Below the pieces are notes generated by a model, which saw nothing but the letters and a program-made list of their open reading frames with translations, was not told the DNA's origin and did not search any database. The position numbers were made by a program, and so were the translations under genes. This document shows, in pieces, positions 1 through 63,767 of a DNA stretch of 64,000 nt. Source of the stretch: Demequina pelophila. GTDB taxonomy: Bacteria > Actinomycetota > Actinomycetes > Actinomycetales > Demequinaceae. Within the stretch, counting starts at the first letter, position 1, and every line of letters begins with the position of its first letter. The stretch spans positions 545,709 through 609,708 of the forward strand of contig NZ_BBLY01000001.1 in assembly GCF_000971175.1 (NCBI RefSeq), read 5' to 3'.

Positions 1-903
1 GTGCGGGGCGTCGCACGAGGTGGCGTGCCTGCCCAGCCAGCCCAGTGCATCGGCCGTCATCTGCTGGGCCGTCCGGGTGTCCGACTCCGGCCCGTTGTCC
101 CTGCGCGCACGGAAGGCGGCCTTCTTGAAGCCGTCGACCGCCGCGATGAGCGGCGCCGCGGTCAACGGGTCGAGCAGCGCCTCGAGCTTCACCATGCCGT
201 CCCGCTGCTCGTGGAGCACGGCGAAGCGGCGGCGGTAGAGGTCCTCCTGCTGCTCCTCGGCGTTCTCGACCGGCGTGAGGTCCGCGGTCGCCTTGGCGAC
301 CAGTTGCCGCACCGAGCGCAGCGGCAGCCCCGTCGCCTTCTTGACCAGCACCTGCTCCACCGCCGTCAGCGGCAGCGCGCCCAGCCGGGTCTTGCGGGCC
401 CGCGGGTCCACGCGAAGCCCGGTCGCCTCACGCGCCTCGGGGTGGAGCATGAGCACCTCCTCGACCAGCACGCCCGCGTCGGGGCTCAGCTCGCCGCGCT
501 CGAGCGCGGCGGCCAGGAACGGCAGGACCGGACCCTTCTTCTCCCCTGCCCCGCCACCGGGCGGGGTCTTGGACTGCGACCCGGCCCCCGCATCGTTCCT
601 TGCCTGCCTGATCCGCTCGCCGACGCGGCGCAGTCGCTCGGCCTCCGCCTTGGTGCCGCCGGACGCGGCGGCGTTGAGGTCGTCGGCGGTGCGGAAGCCG
701 TTGCGGCGCGCGAGGCCGGCAGCCCCGTTCTTGGACCGCTCCGAGACGTCCGCGTTCACCATCGCGAGGAGCACGTCGAGCTCGCGCCGGCTCGCGACGA
801 TGTCCCGCTGCAGCAGGAGCAGCTCCTTCTCCGGCAGCGCGCTCGCCTCCAGCACCCGCGCGCGGAGCTGCGCGATGGTGTCGGTGGCGGTCGGATCGGC
901 CAT
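1..903 (-). CDS. DUF222 (13E12 repeat) family protein, HNH part outside window (partial)
   Basis: The frame is open from ATG at 903 to the window edge, giving 301 codons without a stop, so the C-terminus lies outside. The visible protein starts MADPTATDTIAQLRARVLEA and is a charged helical domain with an N-terminal region rich in LPEKELLLLQRDIV, then a Gly/Lys-rich linker near residues 120-140, then a helical block containing the segment HEQRDGMVKLEALLDP near residue 250. This layout is that of the DUF222/13E12 proteins that in actinobacteria usually carry a C-terminal HNH nuclease motif. The HNH motif itself cannot be seen here. These genes are multicopy and often accessory; function is not established. 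No strong Shine-Dalgarno (SD) sequence precedes the ATG. Confidence 0.75.
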   Translation of the reverse strand, partial: MADPTATDTIAQLRARVLEASALPEKELLLLQRDIVASRRELDVLLAMVNADVSERSKNGAAGLARRNGFRTADDLNAAASGGTKAEAERLRRVGERIRQARNDAGAGSQSKTPPGGGAGEKKGPVLPFLAAALERGELSPDAGVLVEEVLMLHPEAREATGLRVDPRARKTRLGALPLTAVEQVLVKKATGLPLRSVRQLVAKATADLTPVENAEEQQEDLYRRRFAVLHEQRDGMVKLEALLDPLTAAPLIAAVDGFKKAAFRARRDNGPESDTRTAQQMTADALGWLGRHATSCDAPH

Positions 904-1138
904 GACTCAAGTCAACTACGAGGGTCTGACACTGAACCGGACATACCGGACACGCCTTGGGGAGAACTTTCCAAGGGACGATGCGCGGGTCGCCACAGCG
1001 CCCGGGTCACCCCAGCGCGCGGGCCACCCGGGCGCCCAAGCCCGCCCACGCATCGGCCCGGGCCAGGCCCCACCACGAAGCGAAACGCCCGGCCCCGCCC
1101 CCGAAGAACGGAGGCAGGCGCCGGGCGCCCACAAAGAG

Positions 1139-1561
1139 TCAGGAGTCCGACGGCAGCGCCGGCGCCTCCCGCACGATCGCCCCGAGCACGCCGTTCACAA
1201 AGGAAGGCGAGTCGTCGGTCGACAGCTCCTTGGCCAGCTCCACGGCCTCGGAGATGGCCACGTTCGCGGGCACGTCCGCGGCCTTCAGGATCTCCCAGGT
1301 CGCGATGCGCAGCAGCGCACGGTCCACCGCGGGCATGCGCGGCAGGGTCCAGTCGGGCGAGTGCTGCTGGACGAGCGCGTTGATCTCGACCCACCAGCGG
1401 GCGACGCCGCGGACGATCTCCTCGGAGTACGCGGGCAGCGGCGTCTCACGGCCGGAGTTCCGCAGGCGGTCCTCCAGGACGTCGACAGCGTTGACCCCGC
1501 GCTGGTCGGCCTCGAAGAGGACGTCGAGGGCGCGCTTGCGGGCCTTGGTCCGGGCTCCCAC
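1139..1561 (-). CDS. nusB: Transcription antitermination factor NusB
   Basis: 140 residues, the usual NusB length. The N-terminus GARTKARKRALDVLFEADQRG is the conserved Arg-rich RNA/NusE-binding helix, and the C-terminal half (NVAISEAVELAKELS, then SFVNGVLGAIVRE) is the family signature. With NusE (S10) it binds boxA RNA and supports antitermination of rRNA operons. The start is GTG at 1561; the efp stop codon overlaps it by one base (TAGTG), so the two are translationally coupled. It is the last gene of the aroC-aroK-aroB / aroQ-efp-nusB minus-strand block. Confidence 0.96.
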   Translation of the reverse strand: MGARTKARKRALDVLFEADQRGVNAVDVLEDRLRNSGRETPLPAYSEEIVRGVARWWVEINALVQQHSPDWTLPRMPAVDRALLRIATWEILKAADVPANVAISEAVELAKELSTDDSPSFVNGVLGAIVREAPALPSDS

Positions 1562-2124
1562 TAGTCGTTGACGCGACCCAGGTAGTCGCCGGACTCGGTG
1601 TTGACCTTGACCTTGGTGCCGGCCTCGAGGAACAGCGGCACCTGGATCTCCTTGCCGGTCTCGAGCGTGGCGGGCTTGGTGCCGCCCGAGGAGCGGTCGC
1701 CCTGCAGGCCGGGCTCCGTGTAGGTGACCTCGAGGACCACGGACGCGGGCAGCTCGAGGAAGATCGGGTTGCCGTTGTGCGAGCCGATGGTGGCGGACTC
1801 GTTCTCGAGCAGGAAGTCGGTCGCGTTGCCCATGACGGCGGGCGAGACGGGCACCTGGTCGAAGGTGTTCGGGTCCATGAACACGTACGAGGTGCCGTCG
1901 AAGTACAGGTACTGCATGTCGCGGCGGTCGACGGTCTCGAACTCGACCTTGGTGCCGGCGTTGAAGGTCTTGTCGACCACCTTGCCGGACAGGACGTTCT
2001 TGAGCTTGGTGCGGACGAACGCGCCGCCCTTGCCGGGCTTCACGTGCTGGAACTCGAGGACGGACCAGAGGTTGCCGTCGAGGTTGAGCACGGAGCCGTT
2101 CTTGATGTCGTTCGAGGTCGCCAC
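1561..2124 (-). CDS. efp: Translation elongation factor EF-P
   Basis: 187 residues, standard for EF-P. Domain I carries the tip loop KPGKGGAF with Lys32 at the position that enters the ribosomal peptidyl-transferase centre; the protein rescues ribosomes stalled on polyproline. The KOW-like domain I and two OB folds follow, ending [12 protein letters not shown]. The start is GTG at 2124, supported by an AAGGAA SD about 8 bases upstream and by the canonical N-terminus (V/M)ATSNDIKNG. No gene for a tip-lysine modification enzyme is visible in this window, so the modification state is unknown. The longer open frame upstream of the GTG overlaps aroQ and is not used. Confidence 0.97.
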
Positions 2125-2624: not shown

Positions 2625-2726
2625 GCGGTGGGGCCTGACATTGGACGATGCCCGGGCCGGGTTGGGGATGGACCGGGGACGATGCGTCGGTCGGTTTGCG
2701 CCTCGCCCGCACCAATACCCTCGCGC

Positions 2727-6199: not shown

Positions 6200-6252
6200 G
6201 ACCGCCATTGTTCCACGGGTGCCCGGGGACGATGCGCGGGCCGGGGACACGC

Positions 6253-6286
6253 CGAAAGGCGCCGCCCGGATGGGCGACGCCTTTCG
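6253..6286 (-). terminator. Terminator of the pilus cluster
   Basis: Arms 6253-6267 and 6272-6286 pair over 15 positions with one mismatch around a four-base loop. It lies just past the stop of the last pil gene (6310) and before the aroC start, separating the two units. There is no clear U-run on the minus strand. Confidence 0.6.
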
Positions 6287-6309
6287 ATTGGGGATCCGGA
6301 CTTGGCCTG

Positions 6310-7173
6310 CTACGCGCCGGGCTGCGCGGGCGAGTTCGGCACGCCGCGGAAGACCGACTCGGTCGGCACCGACGCAGGCTCACCGAGCGACTCATCGAGA
6401 ATCGAGGTATCCGCATCAAGCACATACATGAGTGCCCGGATGGTGGTCTGCACGTCGCCGTCCTGGGCATCCGAGACCCCAGCGATGGCGCCCGAAGACC
6501 CGGCGCGAGCGACCTGGAGCACGGAATAGACCTGGAACAACGGCTGGTTCGAGTCGGCGAGGTACTCGAGGAACCGATGCGTCTCCTCAGGCGTGCCCAC
6601 CACGTTGAGCTCGTATTCGACGGCCCGCAAGTCGCTGACCACGGGGCCGGTGGTGGACGTCGCCGCCACCACAGGTGTCCATCCGCTCGGCACCGCCGCA
6701 GCATTCTCGCCCTCGGCGGCCGCGTCACCGGCCGTGCTCGCGGTCTGGGTGGACGCGACCGGACCCAGCTGGAACAGCGCCGCAACCTCATCTGCGGCGA
6801 GCGTGCCGGATTCGGCCTCCCATCCGTCGATCTGGCTGCCCGTGGACTGGCCGTACGACACGAGCTCGACGCGGCTCTCCTCGAGGCCGGCCCACAGACG
6901 GTCGCGCAGCGCGGGCACGTTCAGTCGTGCCGGGGCGTGGAGCGACACAACCTGCGCCGTCTGGTCCGCGTCGGCAAGCTTCACCTCCCACTCGTCGAGA
7001 AGCGCGGATTTCGCGTTGACCTGCTCGGTGTTGGCCTCGATGGCCGCCGTTTGACGGTCAAACTCTCCCGCCTCGTCGAGTTGCGGCTTGACGCCAAAGA
7101 ACCAGCCGAGCAAGAGCACGGCGACAACTCCGAGTGCGGAGAGCGCCACGATGGGTGCATATCGAGAATTCAT
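6310..7173 (-). CDS. pilO: Type IV pilus inner-membrane protein, PilO-like
   Basis: 287 residues. A short N-terminus is followed by one membrane helix (about residues 7-27), a coiled-coil stretch ([22 protein letters not shown]) and a larger extracytoplasmic domain ending with a ferredoxin-like fold typical of PilO ([21 protein letters not shown]). An Ala/Thr/Glu-rich spacer sits near residues 140-165. PilO pairs with PilN to link the cytoplasmic PilM ring to the pilus. It follows pilN with a four-base gap and is the last gene of the cluster. Assignment rests on position and topology more than on sequence. Confidence 0.82.
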
Positions 7174-7177
7174 GGTC

Positions 7178-7918
7178 CTAGCCCTCCTCGCCCGAGTCCT
7201 GCTCGGCGTCCACTGCTTCGTCGGGCTCGGTGAGAGCGCCGATCCCAGAGATCGCGCTTGCCGGGATGAAGCGCTGCTGCAGCAACGTGTCGGTCAGGAC
7301 GCCCGTCGCGTCCACCGCGTAGTACGTGTCCGCACCATCGCCCGCGTAGGCCTCGACCGTGCCACGGACGTTCGCCAGGCCCGGAATCGCGTCGAGCCGG
7401 CTGATCAACGCGGTCGCCGTGTCGAAGGACGTGGCCCGAGCGGTGATGGTGACGGTACCCACACCGTTGCCGTAGACGTCCGACTCGTGCTCGCCCAGGA
7501 CGTCCCCGGAAGCGTTGGGGCCGACCACCTGGAACTGGTCCACACCCGTGTCCGCATCCATGGCGGACTGGATCGCGGCCGTCAACTGGGCGTAGTCGAT
7601 GTCGCCGTAATCGATCTGGGCGAGGGCGTACTCCTCGCGCTCCGCGGCCTTCACCTGCTCGTAGATGTCGATCTTGGCGTCGCGTGCGTTCACCGCGGCG
7701 AGCTCCGCCTGAGCGGCTTCGTTCCGGGCGTTCTCGGAAGAGTTCTTCTCGAACATCCCCCACGCATAGCCGGCGCCTGCGACACCGACGGCGGCCACCA
7801 CGGCGAGGGCCGACAGGGTTTGCACCCGTCGCAGCGTCTTCTGCTCCGCGATCTCGACGGGGATCAGGTTGACCGCGGCAAGCCCCGGGGCTCCGTACTT
7901 CTGGGCGATCGGATTCAC
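7178..7918 (-). CDS. pilN: Type IV pilus assembly protein PilN-like
   Basis: 246 residues. The cytoplasmic N-terminus carries AVNLIPVEI, the short conserved motif by which PilN binds PilM, followed by a membrane helix (about 35-55) and a coiled-coil plus ferredoxin-like external domain (GTVTITARATSFDTATALISRLDAIPG). The C-terminus is acidic (DEAVDAEQDSGEEG). The GTG start at 7918 overlaps the pilM stop as GTGA, so it is coupled to its partner. Confidence 0.86.
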   Translation of the reverse strand: MNPIAQKYGAPGLAAVNLIPVEIAEQKTLRRVQTLSALAVVAAVGVAGAGYAWGMFEKNSSENARNEAAQAELAAVNARDAKIDIYEQVKAAEREEYALAQIDYGDIDYAQLTAAIQSAMDADTGVDQFQVVGPNASGDVLGEHESDVYGNGVGTVTITARATSFDTATALISRLDAIPGLANVRGTVEAYAGDGADTYYAVDATGVLTDTLLQQRFIPASAISGIGALTEPDEAVDAEQDSGEEG

Positions 7919-8973
7919 TTCACACCTCCGGCCGCAAGGCCAATCGCTGTCGCAAACTCGATCTCGCGTCCCTGAATCGGGCCGGTGTCTGCCTTCTTGC
8001 CAATACGGATGCCCTGGAGCGGGTCTCCGATCATCACCGGCAGGCGGGTGGCGCTGGCGAGTGCCTGGCCGAAGCCCTGCAACTGGCTGCCTCCCCCAGT
8101 GAGCACGATCCGCGCCACAGCGGCTCCCGGGTTGCCGCTCGCGAAGTACACGAGCGTGTTGCGAACGGACTCGATGAGGGGGCCCGTCGCGTGTTCCACC
8201 GCGTCGGCGACCACCTTGCGGTCCGGGTCCTCGGACCGCACCATGCCAACGGCACGCTTGGCCAACTCGGGATCCGCATTCTCGCCCTTGAGCGCCTGCG
8301 CAACCGCCTTCGTCCCGTCGTGCCCGCCATGCGGCATCGCGCGTACGAGGCGCACGGCGCCCGCCTGCGAGATCACGACGGTCGTGGTCTGGGCACCCAC
8401 GTCGACAAACGCAACGTTGTCCCGTGCGATATCGCCTCGACAGCCGATGCGCCACAAACCGAACGCCGAGTGATCCACCGCGGCGACCTTGACGCCCGCG
8501 GCGTGGAGCACGTCGGTAACGTCTCGCACGAGCGAACGTGGCGCCGCGACCAGGAGGCCGCGCAACGTCGCGCCGCCCTGGGCCTCGAACTCGGCGGTCG
8601 GATAGAAGTCCATGATGACGTCTTCCGCGGCCATGGGCAGTTGATCCTGCACGTGGAACGCGAGCGAGGATCGCACCTTGTCCATGGGCTGCGCCGGAAT
8701 GTCGACCTCGCGGACAACGATGCTTGGGGATCCGAGCCCGAGCACCACGTTCTTGCTGGACGGCTTCGCGTGTGCCCACGCCTCGCGCACCACCTGCGCT
8801 AGAGCCGATGGCTCCTCCACGACGCCACCCCGGATCACGCCCGGCGGCACTTCCGCCTCCCCGAAGGCAAGCAGGGTGGCTCCGTCACGCGGGTCGGCGC
8901 CCGAGCCGAGCTCGACCTCCGCAACGCGGACCGCGGACGCCCCCACGTCTACTGCGACCGTTCTAGTTCCCAC
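7915..8973 (-). CDS. pilM: Type IV pilus assembly protein PilM (actin-like ATPase)
   Basis: 352 residues, typical PilM. Actin-fold phosphate motifs are visible: DVGASAVRVAEVE near the N-terminus, VDVGAQTTTVVI mid-protein and LTGGGSQL in the adenosine region. FHVQDQLPM is the usual SHS2/1C-type segment. It forms the cytoplasmic ring of the pilus platform and binds the PilN tail. GTG at 8973 is preceded by AAAGGA at about 10 bases. It lies 63 bases after the prepilin peptidase gene. Confidence 0.93.
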   Translation of the reverse strand: MGTRTVAVDVGASAVRVAEVELGSGADPRDGATLLAFGEAEVPPGVIRGGVVEEPSALAQVVREAWAHAKPSSKNVVLGLGSPSIVVREVDIPAQPMDKVRSSLAFHVQDQLPMAAEDVIMDFYPTAEFEAQGGATLRGLLVAAPRSLVRDVTDVLHAAGVKVAAVDHSAFGLWRIGCRGDIARDNVAFVDVGAQTTTVVISQAGAVRLVRAMPHGGHDGTKAVAQALKGENADPELAKRAVGMVRSEDPDRKVVADAVEHATGPLIESVRNTLVYFASGNPGAAVARIVLTGGGSQLQGFGQALASATRLPVMIGDPLQGIRIGKKADTGPIQGREIEFATAIGLAAGGVK

Positions 8974-9036
8974 AGCTTCGTCCTTTCCACTCCACCCTCA
9001 GACCTGTATCGGCATACTCGCTCGTGTGCTCAACCC

Positions 9037-9831
9037 TCATGCGAGCATCACCAACTCGAGGTACCACTGCGTCACGGGCGCCCCGATAAGCACCCCCGTG
9101 GCGGCGCCGACGAACATCCATGGACCGAACGGCACCGCCACGCCGCGGGTGCGCCGCGCGCGGCGCATCGCGATCACGCCGGCGACGGCACCCCACACAA
9201 AGGCGGCGAACACGCCCACGGCGAAGAGCGGCCACCCAAGGAAGGCAAGGCTCGCGCCGATGCTCGGGGCAAGCTTCACGTCACCGAAACCCATGCCCTT
9301 GGGATAGATCACGAAGGCGAGTCCATATAGCGCCCCCAGAGCGGCCGCACCGATGACCGCCCGAAGGAGCGCGTCCCACTGACCGGTGAGCGCACAGGTG
9401 GCGGGTGCGAGCACGGCCACGCAGACGGCGAACGCCCCGGTGAGTGGATCCGGGAGCCGACGAGTCTCGAGATCGACCGCGCTGAGCACAATGCCGAAGT
9501 ACACCAGGGCCAGCAGCATCGCCGTGCGCCAATCGGGGCCGGTCAGAGCGGTCACGCCGGCGAAGGCCAGGCCCGTCGCAAGCTCGACCGCCGGATAGCG
9601 CCCCGAGATGGGAGCGCCGCAGTCGGCGCACTTGCCCCGAAGCCATAGCCATCCGATCACGGGCACGTTGTGGCGCGCGCGGATCCGATGGCCGCAGGCC
9701 GGGCAGGCGCTCGCCGGGCTCACTACCGATACACCCTGCGGAACCCGATGGATAAGCACGTTGGCGAACGAGCCCAGTGCGAGTCCCAGGGCCCCGGCGA
9801 GCGCAGCCGCGACGAGAGAGATGCCAGTCAT
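9037..9831 (-). CDS. pilD: Prepilin peptidase / N-methyltransferase
   Basis: 264 residues with about eight membrane helices. The two CxxC pairs (CPACGHRIRARHN and KCADCGAPI) of the zinc-binding N-terminal domain are intact, which in this family accompanies the methyltransferase activity. The catalytic aspartates are in DLETRRLPD and GMGFGDVK. It cleaves the Gly-(Phe/Leu) bond of the pilins encoded just upstream. Start ATG at 9831, three bases after the stop of the preceding gene. Confidence 0.95.
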   Translation of the reverse strand: MTGISLVAAALAGALGLALGSFANVLIHRVPQGVSVVSPASACPACGHRIRARHNVPVIGWLWLRGKCADCGAPISGRYPAVELATGLAFAGVTALTGPDWRTAMLLALVYFGIVLSAVDLETRRLPDPLTGAFAVCVAVLAPATCALTGQWDALLRAVIGAAALGALYGLAFVIYPKGMGFGDVKLAPSIGASLAFLGWPLFAVGVFAAFVWGAVAGVIAMRRARRTRGVAVPFGPWMFVGAATGVLIGAPVTQWYLELVMLA

Positions 9832-9834
9832 CGT

Positions 9835-11697
9835 CTATCCGAACAAGTCGTAGCGTGACAGGAGCTTGAGCTCTGCGAGCTCCTCGGGCGTCGGGTCGCC
9901 CGCCACCGCAGACGGAACGTCGACCTTCGCCATGCGCATGTCGAAGGAGTTGTGAATGTCGACGCTTCCCCCGTAGACCTGGCCGGTGAAGTAGTCGTTG
10001 TTGGCGCCCATGTCCCAACCGGTGTTGAAGTCAACGGTGCAGGGCGTGTAGACGAAGATGTCCGCGCCGTCGTTCTTGACCTTGTCGAAGTAGATGTCCT
10101 GGGTGACCGGAGCGTTGGCACCGTTCGCGGTCTTGCGGTCGTCCTCCGCCGTGCACGTGGGGCTCTCCTGCACGGGGTTGGTGCCCGCGACCTCGGTCCA
10201 GGTGACATTGGGTGATTCCGCGGGCACGATGAAGTGCAGGTCGGGGCGATCGGTGCCCGACGCGAGGATGTTCAACTGGTTGCTGAAGCGGAACCCCGAC
10301 TCCGACACCAGTGCGAGATTGCCGCCCACGTTCATGTCCGACTTGCTGGAGAACATCACCGGCGTGTCGCAGCCTTGGAAGACGACCAGCAGGGAGCCGT
10401 CGCTCCAGTCCCAGCTGTTGATGTAGTCGAGCGGATCGGGATCGGCGCACAGGTTGACCTCGCGCACCGAGTAGCCGGCGACCTGCCAGAGGGTCAGGTC
10501 ATCCGGGCCGAACTCGAGCTTGGGCATCGGTTCGCGAACCGGACGCTGTACCTCAGTCGGGTATCCCAGGGCGGGCGGTAGCCCAGCGATCGCAGGACGC
10601 GCAGCCGTGCCGATCACGGTGCTGCCCGCTACGAGTTCGTCCGCGATCGTTGGCGCCGTGGCCGTGCCGCCCACCTCGCTGTCCTTGTTGCCGCTCACCA
10701 GGATCTCGAGGTTGCTCGCCGCGTTGCCCACGACGCGCACGGAGTCCTGGCTGCCGGACGTCGTGAGCGTCAATTCTTGATCGCTGTGCACGCTTCCATG
10801 CACCACCCCATCGCCGGTCAACTGGATCGCGCCGGCAAGGGAGACCAAGTTTCCGCCAACGTACGCCGTCGTCGTGATTCCCCCGTTGGAGATCAGGCTG
10901 CCATCCACGATCGTGCCGGACTTGTCGGCCGAGATCGCCGTCGCAGCCGTCGACGCCGAATAGATGTTGCCGGCCACGTGCGTGTCGGAGTCGAACGTCA
11001 CCGTGCCACGCGCCCACAGATCGGACGCGAGATTGCAGGCGCTCTTGAAGTACGCGTCGCCGTTGGCGGCGATCACCTCGCCCTCGATGCCCAGCTGGGT
11101 CTCGCAGACGATTCCACCATTCGTGTAGACGTTCGCGTCCGCGAGCCCGTCCGAAGACTCATCCACCTGGGTATTGCTCGTGATCTCCGTCGATCCCTCG
11201 GAGAAGATCGCCTTGTCCAGGCTCGCCTGCTCGGGTGCCGAGAAGAGCACGGCCTCGACCGTCCGGGTCAGGACCTCGTTCGCGACGGGCACGTTGGCCG
11301 AGGTCGCGGTCGAGCGGACCGTGAGGGCGCGGGTCACGTCGGTCGACGCCGGGCACGCCTTGGTCTCGGAGGCGCCCGAGGCAGTCACCACCGTGTACTC
11401 GGTCTCGACGACCACCGAGTCGTTGTTGATGGTGAACGTCGGCGAGCACACGGATCCGAGCTCCTCGTGCTTGAGCCCGTCGATCATGTTCATGACGAGG
11501 TCGATGCCCGCGTCGGCCGACGCGAGCACCCGCATCTCGGCGCGGGTCTTCGAGGTGACGCCGGAGTTGAACACCGCTACTGCGACGAGAGTGGCGACGA
11601 TGATCGACCCGATCAGCATCAGCATGAGCGTCATCACGAGCGCGAGCCCGGCGTCGCTGCCGCTACCCGCCCGCCGGCTCCTCATTGACTTCCACAT
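9835..11697 (-). CDS. PilX-like membrane-anchored, beta-rich pilus-associated protein
   Basis: 620 residues. The N-terminus has a hydrophobic helix at about 17-43 preceded by SDAG and followed by ASADAGIDLVM, like the PilX/PilX-N family of minor pilins. Residues about 180-370 form a run of short Gly/Asn-punctuated strands (NGGIVCETQLGIEGEVIAA, NIYSAS, GSLISNGG, GGNLVSLAGAIQLTGDGVVHGSVHS) resembling bactofilin or polymer-forming right-handed beta-helix proteins. A C-terminal domain (about 400-600) contains several Cys and Trp residues and repeats DMNVGGNLALVS and NSFDMRMAK. It is probably exposed on or near the pilus and is a candidate adhesin. SD GAGGGG precedes ATG 11697. No exact family is recognised for the C-terminal domain. 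Confidence 0.7.
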   Translation of the reverse strand: MWKSMRSRRAGSGSDAGLALVMTLMLMLIGSIIVATLVAVAVFNSGVTSKTRAEMRVLASADAGIDLVMNMIDGLKHEELGSVCSPTFTINNDSVVVETEYTVVTASGASETKACPASTDVTRALTVRSTATSANVPVANEVLTRTVEAVLFSAPEQASLDKAIFSEGSTEITSNTQVDESSDGLADANVYTNGGIVCETQLGIEGEVIAANGDAYFKSACNLASDLWARGTVTFDSDTHVAGNIYSASTAATAISADKSGTIVDGSLISNGGITTTAYVGGNLVSLAGAIQLTGDGVVHGSVHSDQELTLTTSGSQDSVRVVGNAASNLEILVSGNKDSEVGGTATAPTIADELVAGSTVIGTAARPAIAGLPPALGYPTEVQRPVREPMPKLEFGPDDLTLWQVAGYSVREVNLCADPDPLDYINSWDWSDGSLLVVFQGCDTPVMFSSKSDMNVGGNLALVSESGFRFSNQLNILASGTDRPDLHFIVPAESPNVTWTEVAGTNPVQESPTCTAEDDRKTANGANAPVTQDIYFDKVKNDGADIFVYTPCTVDFNTGWDMGANNDYFTGQVYGGSVDIHNSFDMRMAKVDVPSAVAGDPTPEELAELKLLSRYDLFG

Positions 11698-11722
11698 GAT
11701 TTCCCCTCAGCCCCCACACTTT

Positions 11723-12334
11723 CTAGTTGCAGGACAGTGTCAGATCCGCCTGCTTGCGCAGGGAGATGCTCTTGACGAAGTCGACCGGGTTGCGCCCTTC
11801 GAAGGTGTCCGCACGCAGCTGGATCGTGACCGCCTTGCCGGCGGCGTACTTGTCGTCAAGGCCGAACACGGCTTCGGATTCGATGCTGCGCATATCGGTA
11901 CGAACGAGAGGCCACGTGGCCGTGGCCGCCTGAAGGTCAGCGGCGGTCGAGGCGGCTATCGCCGGCGCCGTGTCGACGTTGGAGTCCTTGGTGGTGCGTC
12001 GAAGCTCGGAAGTCGTCTCGTCGTAGTAGTAGCCGACGCACCGCGCGCTGTTCTCGCCGCCGTCGACGGCCTTGCGCGTCAGAATGATGAGGAGGTCGCC
12101 CGATGAACTCACGTCCGCCCAGTCCGCGCTACGGAGGTCGTATTCCAGTTCCTTGAACACGATCTGGGCCTCATTGTTCGCCTCGGCCGTGGCCCGCGCA
12201 TATCGCTCATGCTGGATGACGCTGATGAAGACGGTGCCGACCATGAGCATCACGATGGCGAGTACGACCATGTACACGATGAGCTCGGCGAGTGTGAAGC
12301 CGGCGTCCTTTGACGGCTTGACTGGGCGGTTCAT
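11723..12334 (-). CDS. Minor pilin, PilW-like
   Basis: 203 residues. The class III prepilin motif is G12 followed by FTLAELIVYM, giving Glu at mature position 5, then a hydrophobic helix and KELEYDLRSADWADVSSSG, the start of a globular domain like PilW/PulJ. The single C-terminal Cys (LTLSCN) may pair with the Cys at RCVGYYY. The ATG at 12334 overlaps the stop of the upstream minor pilin as ATGA. Its likely role is in the pilus tip or initiation complex. Confidence 0.82.
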   Translation of the reverse strand: MNRPVKPSKDAGFTLAELIVYMVVLAIVMLMVGTVFISVIQHERYARATAEANNEAQIVFKELEYDLRSADWADVSSSGDLLIILTRKAVDGGENSARCVGYYYDETTSELRRTTKDSNVDTAPAIAASTAADLQAATATWPLVRTDMRSIESEAVFGLDDKYAAGKAVTIQLRADTFEGRNPVDFVKSISLRKQADLTLSCN

Positions 12335-12792
12335 GGCTGGAACTTCACAAGAATGTCGGTGGTCGTGGAGACCACGGGGTCCTGCGCGCCGGGCGCGTCC
12401 GACCGCGCGGTGACGGTCAGGCGCATGAGCTGCACGGGATCGCGCTCCTCCTCGGTGGCCGCGTGAGTGCACGAGTCTGCGGAAGTCCCGCCGATCGTGT
12501 ACGTGGCGGAACCCTCGATCGTGTACGTGATTCCACGACCGTCGGTGACCGTTCCGGTGGGAAAAGCTGCGCCTTCGACCACGTCGCAGTCGCCGGCGAC
12601 CGATGCGGCGCGCACGTCCTCGATACGCTGCTGGACGGCCTCGGCAGCCGTCGCAACAGTGAGGTTCGACGCTGTCGAATTGAGGGCGAGGACGACTGTC
12701 GTGATCATCGCCATCATGATGATTCCGAGAAGCACCATCGCGACCATGACCTCGGTGAGACCGAGCCCTTCGTCTGCCTTCGTCGACTGCAT
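12331..12792 (-). CDS. Minor pilin, PilV-like
   Basis: 153 residues. The leader ends at G9, followed by LGLTEVMVAMVLLGIIM, which keeps Glu at mature position 5 although residue 1 is Leu rather than Phe. A small beta domain with two cysteines (AGDCDVVEG and SADSCTHAA) follows. SD AAGGGAGGA sits before ATG 12792. It is coupled to the PilW-like gene. Type IV pilin minor subunits of this order (V then W then X) form the priming complex in other systems. Confidence 0.82.
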   Translation of the reverse strand: MQSTKADEGLGLTEVMVAMVLLGIIMMAMITTVVLALNSTASNLTVATAAEAVQQRIEDVRAASVAGDCDVVEGAAFPTGTVTDGRGITYTIEGSATYTIGGTSADSCTHAATEEERDPVQLMRLTVTARSDAPGAQDPVVSTTTDILVKFQP

Positions 12793-12826
12793 TCGTTCCT
12801 CCCTTCAAGTACCGAGCGCCGATCGA

Positions 12827-12875
12827 CCATGGGGTTCCCCTGAGACCACCCGTGGTCCCACGGGGAACCCCATGG
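12827..12875 (-). terminator. Long perfect hairpin after the major pilin gene
   Basis: Arms 12827-12840 and 12862-12875 (CCATGGGGTTCCCC and its complement) pair over 14 bases; inside the loop GACCAC (12844-12849) pairs with GTGGTC (12852-12857). It begins 11 bases after the pilin stop (12886). No U-run follows on the minus strand, so it may be a partial terminator or a 3' stabiliser that lets the pilin message exceed the downstream minor pilins. Confidence 0.65.
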
Positions 12876-12885
12876 CGTCACTGCA

Positions 12886-13332
12886 TCACTCCGATGCCGC
12901 GACCTCGACGCAGGTTGCCGACTTCGGGTACATCTGCCCGTTCTCGTCGGAGCTCACCGAGTAGTTCGTGCCGTTGGAGTAGTCATCGGTTCCACCTTCG
13001 TAGGTGGCGCCGATGCAGAAGCTGCCGTCACTCGTGGAGTACTCGGAGATAGTCATGGTGTTCGCCGGGCTACCGGTGAAGATCGTCGCCAGGTCGCCCT
13101 GGATCCCCGCAAGGTTGGTGGTCGGGTTCTCGACGACATACGCGGCGATCGCCGTGCGCATCGAAGCCAGGTCGGCCTCCGCGGCCGAGTCGCGGGCCTT
13201 CGCCTGCTGGTTGAGGTAGATCGGCACGGCGATCGCCGCGAGGATGCCGATGATGATGATCACGACGAGGAGCTCGACCAGGGTGAAGCCCTGGTCCTTC
13301 TCGTCGAGCTGCTTGCGGATGCGAGCGAGCAT
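12886..13332 (-). CDS. pilA: Major type IV pilin
   Basis: 148 residues. A charged leader ends at G15, then FTLVELLVVIIIIGILAAIA with Glu at mature position 5, the classic N-methylated pilin helix. The globular part has two cysteines (SFCIGATYEGG and KSATCVEVAASE) that would close a C-terminal D-region loop, and the conserved start QQAKARDSAAEADLASMRTAIAAYV. A good SD (AAAGGAGA) lies before ATG 13332. The gene is bracketed by hairpins at 13392-13409 and 12827-12875, consistent with separate, high expression of the main subunit. Confidence 0.94.
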   Translation of the reverse strand: MLARIRKQLDEKDQGFTLVELLVVIIIIGILAAIAVPIYLNQQAKARDSAAEADLASMRTAIAAYVVENPTTNLAGIQGDLATIFTGSPANTMTISEYSTSDGSFCIGATYEGGTDDYSNGTNYSVSSDENGQMYPKSATCVEVAASE

Positions 13333-13391
13333 TGCATTCTCCTTTGATGAGCTGCTGTATGTGGTTGACGAGCTGATCCCTCAGCTCCCTG

Positions 13392-13409: not shown

Positions 13410-13416
13410 AAGCCTG

Positions 13417-14664: not shown

Positions 14665-14669
14665 GGCCG

Positions 14670-47106: not shown

Positions 47107-47117
47107 CGTCCCTGGTC

Positions 47118-51868: not shown

Positions 51869-53016
51869 TGAGGTGTCACGTCCTTCGTGGGATGGGGATG
51901 GAACTCGGCGTCCATCCTAATGGCGTCGCGATACGTCTCCTCGATGCGGGGCGCGACGTTGGACCAGTCGAAACTCATGGCGCATTCGCGGCCGCGGGCG
52001 GCCAGGTCGCGGCGCGCCTCGGGGTCGTCGAGCAGCTCGACGATGCGCGCGGCCAGGTCCTCCGGGTCGCCCACCCGGTGGTGGGCGGCGGCGTGCCCGT
52101 CCCCGAAGGACGACACGTCCTGGAAGGCCACCAGGTCCGAGGCGACCACGGCGGCGCCGGCGGCCATCGCCTCGACCAGGACGATGCCGAAGCTCTCCCC
52201 GCCCAGGTTGGGGGCGCAGTAGATGTCGACCGAGGACATGAAGCGCGCCTTGGCGGGCTCGTCGAGCTCCCCGATCACCTCGGCGCCGGCCTGCGCCGCC
52301 TTCGCGGCGACCCGCTCGTTGAACCGGCCCGCGACCAGGAAGCGCGCGTGCGGATGACGGGCGCGCACGTGAGGGATGGCGGCGAGGTAGTCGTCGAGCC
52401 CCTTGCGTGGCTCGTCGAGGCGGCCCAGGATCCCGATCGTGGGGGACGATGCGGTGCCCTGCCACCGCGGCTCCGGCACCGCGTCGACGTAGTTGGAGGT
52501 GTCGACGCCGTTGGGGATGATGTGCGTCGCCTGGACCCGGAGGTGGTGCTTGATGGTCTCCGCGGCCGAGGGCGACACGGCGATGCGCGCGTCCAGCTCC
52601 TCGTAGCCGGGCTTGATCCACGGCTTGGCCAGCCGCATGGCGATCGACTCGGACTGCGACGAGTGGAAGGTCGCGACCGTGGGGCCCAGCCGCGCCCACA
52701 TCGCGATGACCGACAGGGACGGGGCGCCCGGCTCGTGCAGGTGCACCACGTCGAAGTGGCCCAAAGTGAGCCACTCGCGCACCCGCGCGGCCGCCATCAT
52801 CCCGAACGTGAGCCGCGCGGTGGAGCCGTTGTAGCGGATGGGGATGGACCGGCCGGCGCTGGCCACGAAGGGCGGCACGGGGGTGTCGTCGGCCGCCGGC
52901 GCGAGCACCGAGACGTCGTGGCCCCGGTCCATGAGCGCCTTGGCCAGGTCGAGGACGTGGAGCTGGACGCCGCCGGGACGGTCGAGCGAGTACGGGCAGA
53001 CGATCCCGATCCTCAT
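51865..53016 (-). CDS. pimA: Phosphatidylinositol mannosyltransferase PimA (GT4)
   Basis: 383 residues. GT-B fold beginning [28 protein letters not shown] with the acceptor-site region [16 protein letters not shown], and donor-site [18 protein letters not shown] and [24 protein letters not shown]. It transfers the first mannose from GDP-mannose to phosphatidylinositol on the inner membrane leaflet. Located between patA and pdxS, as in mycobacteria. Confidence 0.94.
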
Positions 53017-53017
53017 C

Positions 53018-53905
53018 TCAATCCGTCCATCCGAAGCGCTGCAGCATGTGCCAGTCCTCCGGCGTCTCCTGGATCGACCGGCCCATGAACTCTACCCACG
53101 CCCGCGTGAGGTGCCCCACCGCATCGTCCCCCGGCGCGTCGCCGGGCTCGAGCGGCTCCCCGAACGTCATCACCACGCCCCACCTGGAGCGCGCGCGCAG
53201 GCGCGCCCGGCCGCGCAGACGCTCGTAGGTGACCATGACGGGCACCAGGGTGGAGTCGGTGGCGACGGCGAGGGCCGCGGGACCGGGCGCCACCTTGGCC
53301 TCGTGGCCGGCGAACTCGACTGGGATGCCGGAGCCGGACAGGTCGCGGTCGGCGAGCAGGCACAGGACGCCGCCGTCGGTGCTGCCGATGCGCACCAGCT
53401 CCTTGAACGTCGACGACCCCTCGTGGCCCAGGATGCGCATGCCCACCTTCTCGCGCAGCGCGACGAACTCGTCGAACACCTCGCGGGGCTTGAGCACCTC
53501 GGCGACCGTGACCACCTGGCCCCAGTGGCGGCAGGCGTACGCGCCCACGATGTCCCAGTTGCCGGAGTGCGACAGGGCGACGACGGCGCGGCCGTCACGC
53601 GCGAGCGCGTCGGTGAGCGCCGGGCCGTTGACCACACGCACGCGGGCGTCGATGACGCTTCCGGGCAGCCGGCCCAGGGTGAACGTCTCCGCGTAGTAGC
53701 GCGCCGTCGAGGCGAGGCCCTTTCGCGACAGCGTGCGCAGCGCCCGCCCCTCGAGGCCGGTGACGCGATGGAGGTTGTCCTCGAGGCGCCGGGCGGGCTT
53801 GAGGCGCCGCGCCCACACCGTCATGGTGCCGGTCCACGCGATCGCGCGGATCACGGGCTCGGGCACGTAGCGGGACGCGCGGAAGGCGAGCAGAAAGGCA
53901 TTCAT
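53018..53905 (-). CDS. patA: Phosphatidylinositol mannoside acyltransferase (PatA type)
   Basis: 295 residues, LPLAT/HtrB-like fold. The acyltransferase motif is ALSHSGNWDIVGAY (HX4D), with LADRDLSGSGIPVEFAGHEAKVAPGPAALA as the second block. An N-terminal hydrophobic stretch attaches it to the membrane. It acylates the mannose added by PimA. One base separates its stop from the pimA ATG. Confidence 0.9.
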   Translation of the reverse strand: MNAFLLAFRASRYVPEPVIRAIAWTGTMTVWARRLKPARRLEDNLHRVTGLEGRALRTLSRKGLASTARYYAETFTLGRLPGSVIDARVRVVNGPALTDALARDGRAVVALSHSGNWDIVGAYACRHWGQVVTVAEVLKPREVFDEFVALREKVGMRILGHEGSSTFKELVRIGSTDGGVLCLLADRDLSGSGIPVEFAGHEAKVAPGPAALAVATDSTLVPVMVTYERLRGRARLRARSRWGVVMTFGEPLEPGDAPGDDAVGHLTRAWVEFMGRSIQETPEDWHMLQRFGWTD

Positions 53906-55129: not shown

Positions 55130-57121
55130 TCAGACCTGGGCCTTCGAGGCGACCGCGGCGACGATGCGCTCCACCGCATCGTCCACCGGGACCTGGTTGT
55201 CCTGGCTGCCGTCGCGCAGGCGGAAGGACACCGCGTTGGCGTCCGCGTCCTCGCCGCCGGCGATGAGCACGAACGGGATCTTCTCCTTGGACGCGGTGCG
55301 GATCTTCTTGGGGAAGCGCTCGTCCGAGGCGTCGAGCTCCGCGCGGATGCCGCGGGCCTTGAGGCGCGCGACGATCTCGCCCAGGTAGTCGTTGAAGGGC
55401 TCCGCGACCGGGATCGCGCGCACCTGCACCGGCGCCAGCCACACGGGGAACTGGCCCGCGTAGTGCTCGGTGAGGATCGCGAAGAAGCGCTCGATCGAGC
55501 CGAACAGCGCGCGGTGGATCATCACCGGGCGCTGGCGGGTGCCGTCGGAGGCCTGGTACTCGAGCTCGAAGCGCTCGGGCAGGTTGAAGTCCAGCTGGAT
55601 GGTGGACATCTGCCACGTGCGGCCGATCGCGTCGCGCGCCTGCACGGAGATCTTGGGGCCGTAGAAGGCGGCGCCGCCCGGGTCCGGGACCAGCTCGAGG
55701 CCCGAGGCCTCGGCGACCTCGGCGAGCGTCTTCGTGGCCTCCTCCCAGATCTCATCCGAGCCCACCGACTTCTCGGGGTTGCGGGTCGACAGCTCGAGGA
55801 AGAAGTCCTCCAGGCCGTAGTCCTTGAGCAGGCCCAGCACGAACTCGAGCGTGGTGGTGAGCTCGTCCTTCATCTGCTCGCGCGTGCAGTAGATGTGCGC
55901 GTCGTCCTGGGTGAAGCCGCGCGCGCGGGTGAGGCCGTGGACCACGCCGGACTTCTCGTTGCGGTACACCGTGCCGAACTCGAACAGGCGCAGCGGCAGC
56001 TCGCGGTAGGAGCGCCCGCGCGAGCCGAAGATGAGGTTGTGCATGGGGCAGTTCATGGGCTTGAGGTAGTAGTCCTGGCCCTGCTTGGTGACGTTGCCCT
56101 GGGAGTCGCGCTCCTCGTCCATGTGCATGGCCGGGTACATGCCGTCCTTGTACCACTGGAGGTGGCCGGAGGTCTCGAACAGCTGCGCCTTGGTCGCGTG
56201 CGGGGTGTAGACGAACTCGTACCCCTCCTCGACGTGGCGGCGGCGCGAGTACTCCTCCATCTCCATGCGGACCACGCCGCCCTTGGGGTGGAACACCGCG
56301 AGGCCCGAGCCGATCTCGTCCGGGAAGCTGAACAGGTCCATCTCCGCGCCCAGCTTGCGGTGGTCGCGGCGCTCGGCCTCGGCAAGCCGCTCCTTGTACG
56401 CGACCAGCTCCTCCTTGGTGGGCCAGGCGGTGCCGTAGACGCGCTGGAGCTGCGGGTTCTTCTCCGAGCCCTTCCAGTACGCGGCCGCCGAGCGCATGAG
56501 CGACCAACCGTTCGCGAGCACCTTGGTGCTGGGCACGTGCGGGCCGCGGCACAGGTCGCCCCACGCGCGGTCACCGTTGCGGCGCACGTTGTCGTAGATG
56601 GTGATCTCGCCCTCGCCAATCTCCACCGAGGCGCCCTCGGCACCCTCCGTGTCGTGCGTGAGCAGCTCGCACTTGAAGGGCTCGTGGGAGAGCTCCGCGA
56701 GGGCCTCCTCGCGGGTGACCTCGCGGCGCACGAAGGCCTGGCCCTCCTTGACGATGCGCTGCATCGTCTTCTCGAGCTTCTTCAGGTCCTCCGGGGTGAA
56801 GGGCGTCGCGACGTCGAAGTCGTAGTAGAAGCCGTTCTCGATGGGCGGGCCCACGCCCAGCTTGGCGTCGGGGTTGACCTGCTGCACCGCCTGCGCGAGC
56901 ACGTGCGCGGTCGAGTGGCGCAGCACCATGAGTCCGTCCGGGTCCGCCGTGGTGACGGCCTCGACCGCGGCGCCGGCGGGCACCTCGCGGGCGAGGTCCC
57001 ACAGGGCGCCGTCGACGCGCATGACGACCACGTCGCGCCGGTCGGCGAACAGGTCCGTGCCCGTGGTGCCCGGCTCGAGCTCTCGCTCGATGCCGTCGAT
57101 GGTCGCGGTCAGGCTGGGCAC
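55130..57121 (-). CDS. thrS: Threonyl-tRNA synthetase
   Basis: 663 residues: N-terminal TGS domain, editing domain ([13 protein letters not shown]), class II core ([40 protein letters not shown]) and anticodon domain. GTG 57121 with GAGGAG about ten bases upstream. It heads the thrS-HIT-pgsA-patA-pimA-pdxS-NUDIX-pdxT row. Confidence 0.97.
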
Positions 57122-57266
57122 GGTGGTACTCCTCGGGTGGGCGGGCGTTCTACGGGACGATGCTACCGAGCCTGGGTCCCGCGCCGTCGCCTTGGGCGCG
57201 GGTTCGGTGTGGCGGGGGCTCGGTCACGCGGTCACGCCGTGGCGCGGCGGCGGCGCCGCGCGCCGG

Positions 57267-60167: not shown

Positions 60168-61357
60168 GCGAGCAGGCGGCGGTCGAGCACCCCTTCGGCG
60201 AGGCCCAGCCACTCCCCGCGGAACGACGCGTCCGCGGCGCCCGCGGCCAGCGCGATGAGGTTCGCGGCGGTGCGGGCCCGCAGGTCGTCGGCGTCGCAGC
60301 GCGCGGCGAAGGCCGCGAAGTGGTCCTCCGCCGCGGATGCGGCGGTCGGATAGCCCGCCGCGTCGAAGGTGGGCAGGACGAGCAGGTGCGCGAGCATCGT
60401 CGCCAGGTCGTCGGCGCGCCGCCCCGGGCCCAGCGTGTCGATGTCGATGAGGGCGGTCACCGCCGTGGGTGCCGTGCCATCGTCGACGAAGACGTTCGCG
60501 GGGTGGAGGTCGCCGTGCGTGACGCCCACCTCCGGCGCGAGGTCGCGTTCCAGGACGCTGGTGATCGCGCCGACCGCCGCGTCGACGCGGGCCCGGTCGA
60601 GCCCCTGGGCGACCGCCGTGGCGGCGTAGTGGTGGAGCCGGTCCGGGACGGACGGTCGCGCCCTCAGCGCGGCGGCCTCGGACGGGAGCGAGTCGATGGC
60701 CTTGAGGACGAGGTCGGGGTCGAGGGCGGCCGGGGCGTCTCCCCGGGGACGATGCAGGGCGTGCGTCATGGGCACGCCGCGGGCCTGGGCGACGGCGACG
60801 ACGCCGTGGCCCAGGTCGTACGCCGCGGGCGCGAGGGCGCACATCGCATGGCGCTCGAGCAGCGCGTCGGCGCGGGAGGGCCGCACCACCTTGACGAACC
60901 AGGTGGACCGCTCCCCTGCGGCCTCGACCTGCGCGCGCAGCACGGCGCGCCGCAGGGGTCGGAGCACGAGCATCTGCAGCTCGGCGACCGCGACGTCACC
61001 GTGCCCGGCGCGTCCGAAGGCCTCGGCCAGGGTGGCCGGCGTGGAGGCCGTGGCCAGCCCCGGGAGCGCGGGGTCGGCCGGGTGACGCCAGACGTGGATG
61101 ACGGCATCGCCGGCCTCGAGCCTCACGGCGCCGCACGCGGCGCGTTCGGACTCGGTGAGCCGGGCGTCGCTCGCGACCAGGTACAGCTCGCCCGCTCCCG
61201 TGCTCGCGGCGTAGCCGACGGAGGTCTCGGCGCCCGGCCGGGCGTGCACGGCGTCGATGCGCCAGTCGCCCAGCTCGAGGCCGGCGGTTCCCAGGGCGGC
61301 GGCGAGCACGTCGCCCGCCTCGCTCGACGCGAGCAGGTCCAGCGTGGTGGCGGTCAT
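60164..61357 (-). CDS. Phosphotransferase (APH/maltokinase-like) family protein
   Basis: About 397 residues. The kinase-like catalytic loop GVTHGDLHPANVFVDD and the metal-binding LIDIDTLGPGRRADDLATML are present. The N-terminal half (DWRIDAVHARPGAETSVGYAAS, LRPLRRAVLRAQVEAAGERSTWFVKVVRPSRAD) is the usual beta-lobe with lysine. Substrate cannot be told; sugar, choline or antibiotic are all possible in the family. ATG 61357 is used; ATGs at 61366 and 61369 are in frame and none has a clear SD. It lies between the two repeat proteins. Confidence 0.8.
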   Translation of the reverse strand: MTATTLDLLASSEAGDVLAAALGTAGLELGDWRIDAVHARPGAETSVGYAASTGAGELYLVASDARLTESERAACGAVRLEAGDAVIHVWRHPADPALPGLATASTPATLAEAFGRAGHGDVAVAELQMLVLRPLRRAVLRAQVEAAGERSTWFVKVVRPSRADALLERHAMCALAPAAYDLGHGVVAVAQARGVPMTHALHRPRGDAPAALDPDLVLKAIDSLPSEAAALRARPSVPDRLHHYAATAVAQGLDRARVDAAVGAITSVLERDLAPEVGVTHGDLHPANVFVDDGTAPTAVTALIDIDTLGPGRRADDLATMLAHLLVLPTFDAAGYPTAASAAEDHFAAFAARCDADDLRARTAANLIALAAGAADASFRGEWLGLAEGVLDRRLLA

Positions 61358-61426: not shown

Positions 61427-61461
61427 ACGGTTGGTGCGGGCGGACGATGCGCTTCCGGGCC

Positions 61462-62102: not shown

Positions 62103-62116
62103 TGAGAGTCCTCTCA
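62103..62116 (-). promoter_or_regulatory. Palindrome TGAGAG-TC-CTCTCA upstream of paralogue 2
   Basis: Six-base arms around two bases, with the same 5' flank TTCGA as the copy near 60152. It is about 123 bases before ATG 61986. A further half-site-like CCCTCTCAG lies at 62129-62137. Candidate site for the adjacent response regulator. Confidence 0.55.
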
Positions 62117-62147
62117 CGTGGGTGAGTCCCCTCTCAGAAGTGCGGCG

Positions 62148-63767
62148 TCAGAGCCCCTGCCCGCCGTCCCAGAGGCGCTCGGAGGCGCCGGAGATGAGGT
62201 TGGCGAGGCTCATGGCCTGGGCGTCCGTGAGCGAGGCGACGTAGTCGATGATGCCGCGGCCGGTGGCGAGCCGGTCGAGCACCGCGCCGTCGGTGCTGGG
62301 GAGCAGCTCGGGTCGGCGGGCGCGGACGCGCCGGTAGTCCGCGTGGGCCACCTCGACCATGTCGAGCAGGCGCCGGGGCGCGCGCTTGACGTCGACCTCG
62401 TCCTCGAGCCACGCGTCGAGGGACTCCACCAGCCGCTCGATGACGCTCGCCTGTCCGCGCTGATATACGGCCAGGTCGGGACGGTGGAGCACGAAGCGCT
62501 CCTGGAGGAACTTGAGGATCTGGACGTCGTGCCACGCGGCGGTCTCGAGGCTGATGTGGCCCGAGCGGATGTGCGGGTGCCGCACCACCTGGACCGAGTG
62601 CTGCAGCCGCGCGATCCACCGCGCCATGAAGACCGTGAGCGACCTGTCGGCGGCCAGGGAGCCGTCGTAGGGGATGGCCAGGAGCCCTTCGACCACCTCG
62701 TCGGCGACCCGCGCGACGGACTCGCCGAACGCATCGTCGTTGGCGATCCACGCGTCCTTGCCCACCAGCTTGCGCTGCAGGATCTCCAGGCCGTGGCCGG
62801 GCGTGCGGCGATTCCGGCGGAGCTCGTCGGTGTCCATGGCCGCCAGGCGCGCGCGGTCGTACGCGAAGGTGCGGAACTCGGACGACACCGCGGCCTGGTT
62901 GAGCAGGTCCGCGCGGTAGAAGTCGTCGAGGTCGTGCATCGAATACGCCACGTCGTCCGCGACGTCCATGATCGAGCACTCCACCGTCTGCTGGAGGTCC
63001 TCGATCGCGGGGTAGGCCGCACGGGCCTCGGCGAAGTCGGCGGCGTCGAGCACGTACGCCGAGAACTTGCGGGCGCCCTCCCCCGGCCGCCGCGGGGACA
63101 GCCCGCGCGGGGTCTCCGGTCCCGCCGCCCAGCGGTCACCCTCGGCGCGCAGCCACGGGTACTTGAGCACCGCGGCGCGCACCGCCGCGGTGAGGTTGAG
63201 TCCGCTGCCGGCTCGGTCGTACTCGTCCAGGCGCGTGAGGATGCGGAAGGTCTGGGCGTTGCCCTCGAAGCCCTCGAGGAGACCGAAACGCGACCGGGCG
63301 AGTCGGTCGAGCGTCGTCTCGCCCAGGTGGCCGAACGGCGGGTGGCCCAGGTCGTGGGCGCTCGCGGCCGCCTGCACCACCACCGGGTCGCAGCCGCCCA
63401 GCTCCTGGACCAGCCGGCCGCGCTCCCCCGCATCGGCCGCGAAGGAGACCGCGATGGCGCGCGCCACGGCCGTCACCTTGACCGAGTGGGTAAGGCGGTT
63501 GTGGACCGCGAGTCCCGCGCCGGACTGCGAGATCACCTGGGTGACGGCGGACAAGCGCGAGAAGTACGGCGAGAAGCGGATGCGCTCCAGGTCGACGCGG
63601 TACTCGGGGCGGTACTCGACGCGCTGGTACTCGTCGAGCGGCTCGGGGATGCGGCGCAGGACGCGCGGGTCGAACGCGGGCGCCACCTCGGTGGCGTCGG
63701 GCAGGTCCGTCCCGGGTGCCGTCGACTCGGGCGCCGCCGGCTCGGAGAGGTCGGCCACGTCCGTCAC
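62148..63767 (-). CDS. dgt: Deoxyguanosinetriphosphate triphosphohydrolase-like protein
   Basis: 539 residues. HD-domain metal site: NRLTHSVKVTAVARAIA, SAHDLGHPPFGHLGE and DVADDVAYSMHDLDDFYR. The family removes triphosphate from dNTPs. N-terminal 35 residues are a Pro/Ala/Glu-rich extension. GTG 63767 overlaps the stop of the upstream CYTH gene (GTGA). Confidence 0.92.
   Translation of the reverse strand: MTDVADLSEPAAPESTAPGTDLPDATEVAPAFDPRVLRRIPEPLDEYQRVEYRPEYRVDLERIRFSPYFSRLSAVTQVISQSGAGLAVHNRLTHSVKVTAVARAIAVSFAADAGERGRLVQELGGCDPVVVQAAASAHDLGHPPFGHLGETTLDRLARSRFGLLEGFEGNAQTFRILTRLDEYDRAGSGLNLTAAVRAAVLKYPWLRAEGDRWAAGPETPRGLSPRRPGEGARKFSAYVLDAADFAEARAAYPAIEDLQQTVECSIMDVADDVAYSMHDLDDFYRADLLNQAAVSSEFRTFAYDRARLAAMDTDELRRNRRTPGHGLEILQRKLVGKDAWIANDDAFGESVARVADEVVEGLLAIPYDGSLAADRSLTVFMARWIARLQHSVQVVRHPHIRSGHISLETAAWHDVQILKFLQERFVLHRPDLAVYQRGQASVIERLVESLDAWLEDEVDVKRAPRRLLDMVEVAHADYRRVRARRPELLPSTDGAVLDRLATGRGIIDYVASLTDAQAMSLANLISGASERLWDGGQGL

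Follow-up and report, generated by a model that had tools for sequence, protein, structure and literature searches.

A dispersed nine-base word with species dialects in Demequina, probably a DNA-uptake-type self-recognition sequence

A short word, GGACGATGC, recurs on both strands of a 64,000-nucleotide stretch of the Demequina pelophila genome (contig NZ_BBLY01000001.1, positions 545,709 to 609,708; this whole stretch is called the window), together with a second form, GGCCGATGC. The word is real, genome-wide and clade-specific, and it comes in dialects. It is likely to be a DNA-uptake-type self-recognition sequence of Demequina. A preliminary description of the window had named such a role as one candidate among several, and comparison with relatives makes it the best-supported one: the word has dialects, is enriched between genes, favors neither replication strand and is missing from a transposon island, and nearly all species have both a type IV pilus and ComEC. 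Uptake itself is what we infer from these observations.

Results

Abundance of the word in the window and the genome

The window belongs to a 2.68 Mb Demequina genome in 11 contigs (G000; window at C11:545709-609708). It holds 20 copies of GGACGATGC and 25 of GGCCGATGC, which is 10-12x the expectation from dinucleotide shuffles (1.67 and 2.40, respectively), and an order-3 Markov model gives 2.2 and 3.2. The preliminary description had come close to these values, with about 19 and 25 copies and a chance level of about one and two. Over the whole genome, GGACGATGC was counted 1294 times (641+653), i.e., once per 2.1 kb, compared to 13 (4+9) for a reversed-pattern control, and GGCCGATGC 664 times (330+334) compared to 111 (52+59). 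As this control is weak, being exceeded up to ~17x outside Demequina and a second family treated below (f20), the main weight was placed on Markov models and codon shuffles, both of which used a 464 kb sample of G000 that includes the window.

In this sample, GGACGATGC was the top over-represented 9-mer (213 copies versus 25.6 under an order-4 Markov model). Synonymous-codon shuffles within genes (n=30) gave 23.6 intragenic copies (sd 3.8, max 31) where 151 were observed, and for GGCCGATGC 27.5 where 110 were observed. The genome-wide over-representation, counted on the whole genome and modeled on the sample, therefore stands far above a codon-aware expectation. Two sister words stayed close to the null (GGTCGATGC, 33 versus 24.9, max 31; GGGCGATGC, 15 versus 19.4), the third word position having a clear preference for A and C only. 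The genome also avoids GAT as Asp codon, as first described (GAC:GAT = 3933:374). An origin of the word in composition, codon use or a mobile repeat is effectively refuted: the ~17x excess over the reversed control in other genera of the order would fit a compositional effect, but synonymous shuffles and Markov models predict 4-8x too few copies. The mobile repeat proposed earlier was rejected as only the word core is common to the copies, the flanks differing between them, and orthologous positions mostly differ (see below).

Dialects within Demequina

Words were counted in 119 genomes, 44 of them Demequina. GGACGATGC is dominant in 16 of the 44 (929-1864 copies each) and GGCCGATGC in 18 (584-2018 copies each), with cut-offs (>900 and >580, respectively) that were chosen after the counts were known. 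One further genome, G009, has neither dialect and is dominated by CCCGACGCT (988 copies, control 46). Dialects of one core are present in 35/44 genomes, and the remaining nine lack a clear word. Rather than one degenerate word of equal rank, GG(A/C)CGATGC, as initially written, GGACGATGC and GGCCGATGC each serve as the main word in a different set of species. In-between counts were obtained for G018 (409 GGCCGATGC), G007 (472 GGCCGATGC) and G012 (335 CCCGACGCT, control 73). Pooled samples of the nine species without a dialect, G005 left out, yielded no clear word, in a pool where homologous pilus loci inflate shared words. The base after GGCCGATGC varied between species samples, being G in G014, G016, G029, G033 and G034, C in G036 and G015, and T in G010.

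Orthologous copies stood at the same place in 24% of cases among GGACGATGC species, 18% among GGCCGATGC species and 3% between the two, with pairs that are not independent. A conversion of either word into its counterpart at the same site was rejected, as it would concern only these 3% of positions. When GGACGATGC species were compared to GGCCGATGC species, their GGCCGATGC copies were matched in place in 22/158 comparisons versus 10/610 for their GGACGATGC copies (again non-independent pairs). Because of this difference, and because G000 is the first branch of its clade in the core tree, GGACGATGC looks to be the current word of G000 and GGCCGATGC mostly the leftover of an older dialect after a switch. 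The core tree suggests two origins of GGACGATGC (in the main clade, and in G004 with G038); a single origin with losses is possible.

Placement, strand and spacing

The copies in the window are as follows.
GGACGATGC, 976..984, plus strand: outside called genes, in the uncalled first 1.1 kb
GGACGATGC, 2643..2651, plus strand: intergenic
GGACGATGC, 2677..2685, plus strand: intergenic
GGACGATGC, 6227..6235, plus strand: intergenic, directly upstream of aroC
GGACGATGC, 20413..20421, plus strand: within alaS
GGACGATGC, 22515..22523, plus strand: within alaS
GGACGATGC, 25560..25568, minus strand: intragenic
GGACGATGC, 27722..27730, plus strand: intragenic
GGACGATGC, 29344..29352, minus strand: intragenic
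GGACGATGC, 30089..30097, plus strand: intragenic
GGACGATGC, 31874..31882, plus strand: intergenic
GGACGATGC, 41552..41560, plus strand: intergenic
GGACGATGC, 47103..47111, minus strand: straddles a gene end
GGACGATGC, 52179..52187, plus strand: intragenic
GGACGATGC, 52444..52452, plus strand: intragenic
GGACGATGC, 53121..53129, minus strand: intragenic
GGACGATGC, 55176..55184, minus strand: intragenic
GGACGATGC, 57155..57163, plus strand: intergenic
GGACGATGC, 60747..60755, plus strand: intragenic
GGACGATGC, 61442..61450, plus strand: intergenic
GGCCGATGC, 25 copies, 47..63438, both strands: first copy 47-55 (minus), last copy 63430-63438 (minus)

The called coding share of the window is 91%. 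Nine of the 20 GGACGATGC copies nevertheless lie outside called genes (including the one straddling a gene end and the one in the uncalled first 1.1 kb), in agreement with the earlier estimate of about half, as do 5/25 GGCCGATGC copies, two of them in the uncalled first 1.1 kb. In the 464 kb sample, where 151/213 GGACGATGC copies are intragenic, the density was 0.94/kb between genes versus 0.38/kb inside (~2.5x). Higher intergenic densities were likewise observed for GGACGATGC in G026 (0.67 versus 0.28/kb), for CCCGACGCT in G009 (0.87 versus 0.30) and for GGCCGATGC in 8/9 GGCCGATGC genomes sampled (e.g., G016, 1.37 versus 0.46; G015, 1.09 versus 0.55). The gene caller was simple, with one codon model shared by the GGCCGATGC and CCCGACGCT samples, and its calls are poor in some genomes (coding fractions of 0.42 in G010 and 0.48 in G003 are too low). 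GGCCGATGC in G000 showed barely any intergenic enrichment (0.32 versus 0.28). Inside genes, several frames are used, as had been noted, but 3/6 frame/orientation classes contain 139/151 copies. The longer intergenic form described earlier exists, with a consensus near C..GGGGACGATGCGCGGG, but is soft, its flanking positions being 54-79% conserved.

The word is dispersed on both strands without replication-strand bias. Summed G000 blocks gave 102+/111- for GGACGATGC, and 17 stretches of the complete genome G026 gave 57+/63-; by GC skew, the G-rich strand has 52 of these copies and the C-rich one 68. A strong bias to one replication strand is typical of Chi- and KOPS-type sites, and in its absence a Chi-type site was rejected, as was the segregation motif listed among the first candidates. 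In G026, 16/17 stretches have 6-10 copies apiece and one has none; with this word-free stretch left out, spacing was more even than random (variance/mean 0.25, P 0.0014). The word-free stretch (C1:2560001-2580000), a single case, contains integrase-core, DDE transposase and RHS-repeat genes amid housekeeping genes. Even spacing and dispersal in several frames would also suit the binding site of an intracellular chromosome protein that acts at many scattered places, such as a nucleoid, segregation or recombination factor. We regard this as improbable given the strand symmetry in both genomes, and the low word density of pilus operons (see below) would have no obvious reason here either.

Strand symmetry would fit equally with a methylation-linked iterated word, in which the word is the target of an orphan methyltransferase, the resulting mark serves repair, replication or expression, and marked words tend to be retained. 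In the available text on HIP1 of cyanobacteria, a palindrome tied to orphan methyltransferases, a short word fills genomes without a known uptake role (PMC4390886). Like HIP1, GGACGATGC is very frequent across a clade. However, HIP1 is its own reverse complement, whereas GGACGATGC is a 9-mer without palindromic symmetry, has a soft flank and differs from the words of related species by one or two bases, which makes a methylation role unlikely.

A family of transcription terminators or regulatory elements would account for the intergenic enrichment, and intergenic copies flanked by a gene 3' end lie at a median of 28 bases from the nearest one. Among intergenic GGCCGATGC copies, ~29% of a small sample of 21 stood in stems of >=6 pairs compared to 9% with shuffled flanks. 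Most sample copies are intragenic, though, and GGACGATGC had no hairpin excess (stems 0.08 versus 0.06 shuffled). The inverted-pair terminators suggested previously were accordingly rejected for GGACGATGC, and we consider terminators or regulatory elements very unlikely as the main cause.

A related word in a second family

Family f20 is an uncultured second family of the same order, whose closest named SecY entries are metagenome-assembled genomes labeled Bifidobacteriaceae bacterium. GGACGATGC was found in 18/18 of its genomes at 33-399 copies each (control 1-21). These copies are mostly GGACGATGCCG (383/399 in G098), with just 20-51 copies in G083, G130, G131 and G132. In 40 kb of G098, 8/8 copies read GGACGATGCCGYC, preceded by T in 7/8. 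In its CGTC form, GGACGATGCCGYC has ATGCCGTC in common with the 12-mer Neisseria word, probably by coincidence. Of four f20 genomes searched, three contained pilC; the fourth, G083, gave no match and has 33 GGACGATGC only.

The preliminary description had asked whether relatives lacking type IV pili are equally enriched. This was not seen among the 119 genomes, the only set in which it was examined, where the maxima outside Demequina and f20 were 184 GGACGATGC and 434 GGCCGATGC in genomes of 7.2 and 7.8 Mb. Other genera did exceed the reversed control for GGACGATGC (G044, 100 versus 6; G070, 140 versus 10; G082, 151 versus 14). When seven pilC-bearing genomes outside Demequina were sampled for any frequent word, G050 had strong GCGAAGAAGGC-like words, G115 a weaker TACGCCGAG (11 versus 0.5), and G098 was also positive, while samples of the remaining four held no word above z 11. 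The words of G050 and G115 are perhaps coding repeats.

Pilus genes and word-poor stretches

A type IV pilus operon lies at 6310-17737 of the window, on the minus strand.
16073..17737, minus strand: pilB (T2SSE + MshEN)
14670..15980, minus strand: pilT-like (T2SSE)
13417..14664, minus strand: pilC (T2SSF)
12886..13332, minus strand: pilA-like pilin (N_methyl)
12331..12792, minus strand: minor pilin at the pilV position (prepilin motif by script, without Pfam match)
11723..12334, minus strand: minor pilin at the pilW position (N_methyl)
9835..11697, minus strand: gene at the pilX position (PilX_N, below Pfam cut-off)
9037..9555, minus strand: pilD, prepilin peptidase (Peptidase_A24)
7915..8946, minus strand: pilM (PilM_2)
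7178..7918, minus strand: pilN (by position only, without Pfam match)
6310..7119, minus strand: pilO (by position only, without Pfam match)

ComEC is encoded elsewhere on the same contig, and among Demequina genomes relatives of pilC were found in 43/44 and ComEC in 43/44. In some genomes, pilC (G009, G041) or the ComEC domain (G009, G026, G041) is in at least two pieces, possibly by sequencing frameshifts. Two layouts of the operon alternate across the genus, one with a short PilV and a long PilX, the other with a 600 aa PilV-like protein and a 520 aa gene.

Two stretches of the window lack both GGACGATGC and GGCCGATGC.
6236..15912, 9.7 kb, no strand: pilO to most of pilT
31883..41551, 9.7 kb, no strand: ROK-type gene, sugar ABC transporter, two epimerase-like genes, kinase, RelA/SpoT gene

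In 424 kb of contiguous G000 sequence, no word-free stretch is longer than the first. The second, whose gene names come from matches below cut-off except for the kinase and RelA/SpoT (both over it), may be a recently gained sugar cluster, although the RelA/SpoT gene lies inside it too. Scarcity of the word in the pilus operon is general: 31 matching words were counted in 388 kb of operon versus 137 in 263 kb of flanks, making them 6.5x rarer inside, and density was below that of the flanks in 31/32 genomes, the exception being G017. This comparison covers 32/34 genomes of the two main dialects (G029 and G041 left out) with approximate operon bounds and, for G028, a flank of only 0.6 kb. Even the genes of G000, at 0.38/kb, are richer in the word than the operon, at 0.08/kb. 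Part of this low density is expected because operons have little intergenic DNA. The pilB/pilC tree conflicts with the core-gene tree, and the operon may thus be passed as a unit from one species to another. Such block transfer is one possible reason for the low density, and selection against conversion is another.

Candidate receptor pilins

A stand-alone type IV pilin of 141 aa with a prepilin leader (G000:C6:64562-64984; L253:1563-1988) adjoins a metE-like gene. Relatives at >=40% identity occur in 30/44 Demequina genomes and share two invariant cysteines, and this pilin is a receptor candidate. In the alignment, an I/V position and VEN/VEQ near the last cysteine fit the dialect in many rows (exceptions include G008 and G010) but follow the species tree, and the protein was not accepted as a proven receptor. 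Foldseek searches against the PDB returned only chance-level matches; separately, solved ComP structures were not among the matches listed.

Discussion

An uptake word in Demequina would work as follows. With the help of a pilin, the type IV pilus would preferentially bind extracellular DNA that carries the word; PilT-type retraction would then draw this DNA in, ComEC would let it enter the cell, and recombination would insert it into the chromosome. Words arising by mutation would spread, because word-bearing DNA would be taken up more often, and could build up wherever coding constraint permits, above all between genes, until G000 had a copy roughly every 2 kb. A shift in binding specificity by one or two bases might be followed by slow rewriting of the genome, yielding the dialects GGACGATGC, GGCCGATGC and CCCGACGCT, and GGACGATGCCG in f20.

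Several results weigh against this account. The low word density of the pilus operon is not predicted by an uptake model, and pilC and ComEC are also present in 8 of the 9 species that lack a clear word (the exception, G005, is 85% complete and has neither). GGCCGATGC is not enriched between genes in the G014 sample (2/19 intergenic). Spacing in G026 is not significantly even when the word-free stretch is kept (variance/mean 0.72, P 0.22), G000 bins are Poisson-like (variance/mean 1.00), and inverted-pair hairpins are not in excess for GGACGATGC. Nor does the stand-alone pilin follow the dialects any better than the species tree: its tree requires 4 dialect changes (19 taxa; shuffled mean 5.8, P 0.08), compared to 1 on the core-gene tree (17 taxa) and 3 on that of PilA (18 taxa). 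No close relative of it was among the matches listed (none or 31-36%) in the dialect species G011, G020, G037, G019, G036, G042 and G031. The operon pilins were rejected as the specificity determinant, as 9, 8 and 10 dialect changes are needed on the trees of PilA, PilV and PilW, respectively (41-42 genomes). Finally, the literature searched contained no transformation or uptake data for Demequina.

Inverted terminator pairs are typical of the DNA uptake sequences (DUS) of Neisseriaceae and are not required of uptake words. In other respects, the Demequina word resembles DUS, which involve the minor pilin ComP: both are short, non-palindromic words dispersed in about a thousand copies, with dialects that differ by one or two bases and a higher density between genes. 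Both also occur with a type IV pilus and ComEC and, in many species, with a pilin gene set apart from the pilus operon. The differences are the phylum (Actinomycetota), the sequence, the lack of an inverted-pair excess for GGACGATGC, the word-poor pilus operon, and a receptor and uptake that are putative here. The uptake signal sequences (USS) of Pasteurellaceae have a 9-base core with soft flanks and AT-rich tracts, and a copy about every 2 kb. The Demequina word is similar in its dispersed 9-base core, softer flanks and spacing, but has another core, a GC-rich flank instead of AT-rich tracts, and belongs to another phylum. In available portions of the Neisseriaceae literature, uptake words likewise have dialects, high counts and greater freedom between genes (PMC3630211), and ComP is linked to them (PMC6370729).

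Natural transformation occurs in the same phylum in Micrococcus luteus, where the accessible text describes Flp-type pili (PMC4322843, PMC6370729); the portions of the literature searched make no mention of an uptake word for this species. No earlier report of an uptake word in Actinomycetota was found among the open-licence literature matches listed. A 2013 paper set Neisseria and Pasteurellaceae apart as the only bacteria that require uptake words (PMC3630211), and a 2025 paper described Neisseria ComP as an outlier, nearly all other competent species except Haemophilus taking up DNA regardless of sequence (PMC12040237).

Taken together, we think it reasonably probable that Demequina and f20 have an uptake word of the GGACGATGC type, in several dialects and with a pilin as its reader, apart from the words of Neisseriaceae and Pasteurellaceae, and that the pilus operon is nearly word-free as if exempt from word-driven recombination or exchanged outside it. 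If so, this would be a third case of uptake words, in a distant single-membrane phylum and with several dialects within one genus. The origin, rewriting and readers of such words would become testable, and adding the word to DNA would offer a practical handle for transforming these bacteria.

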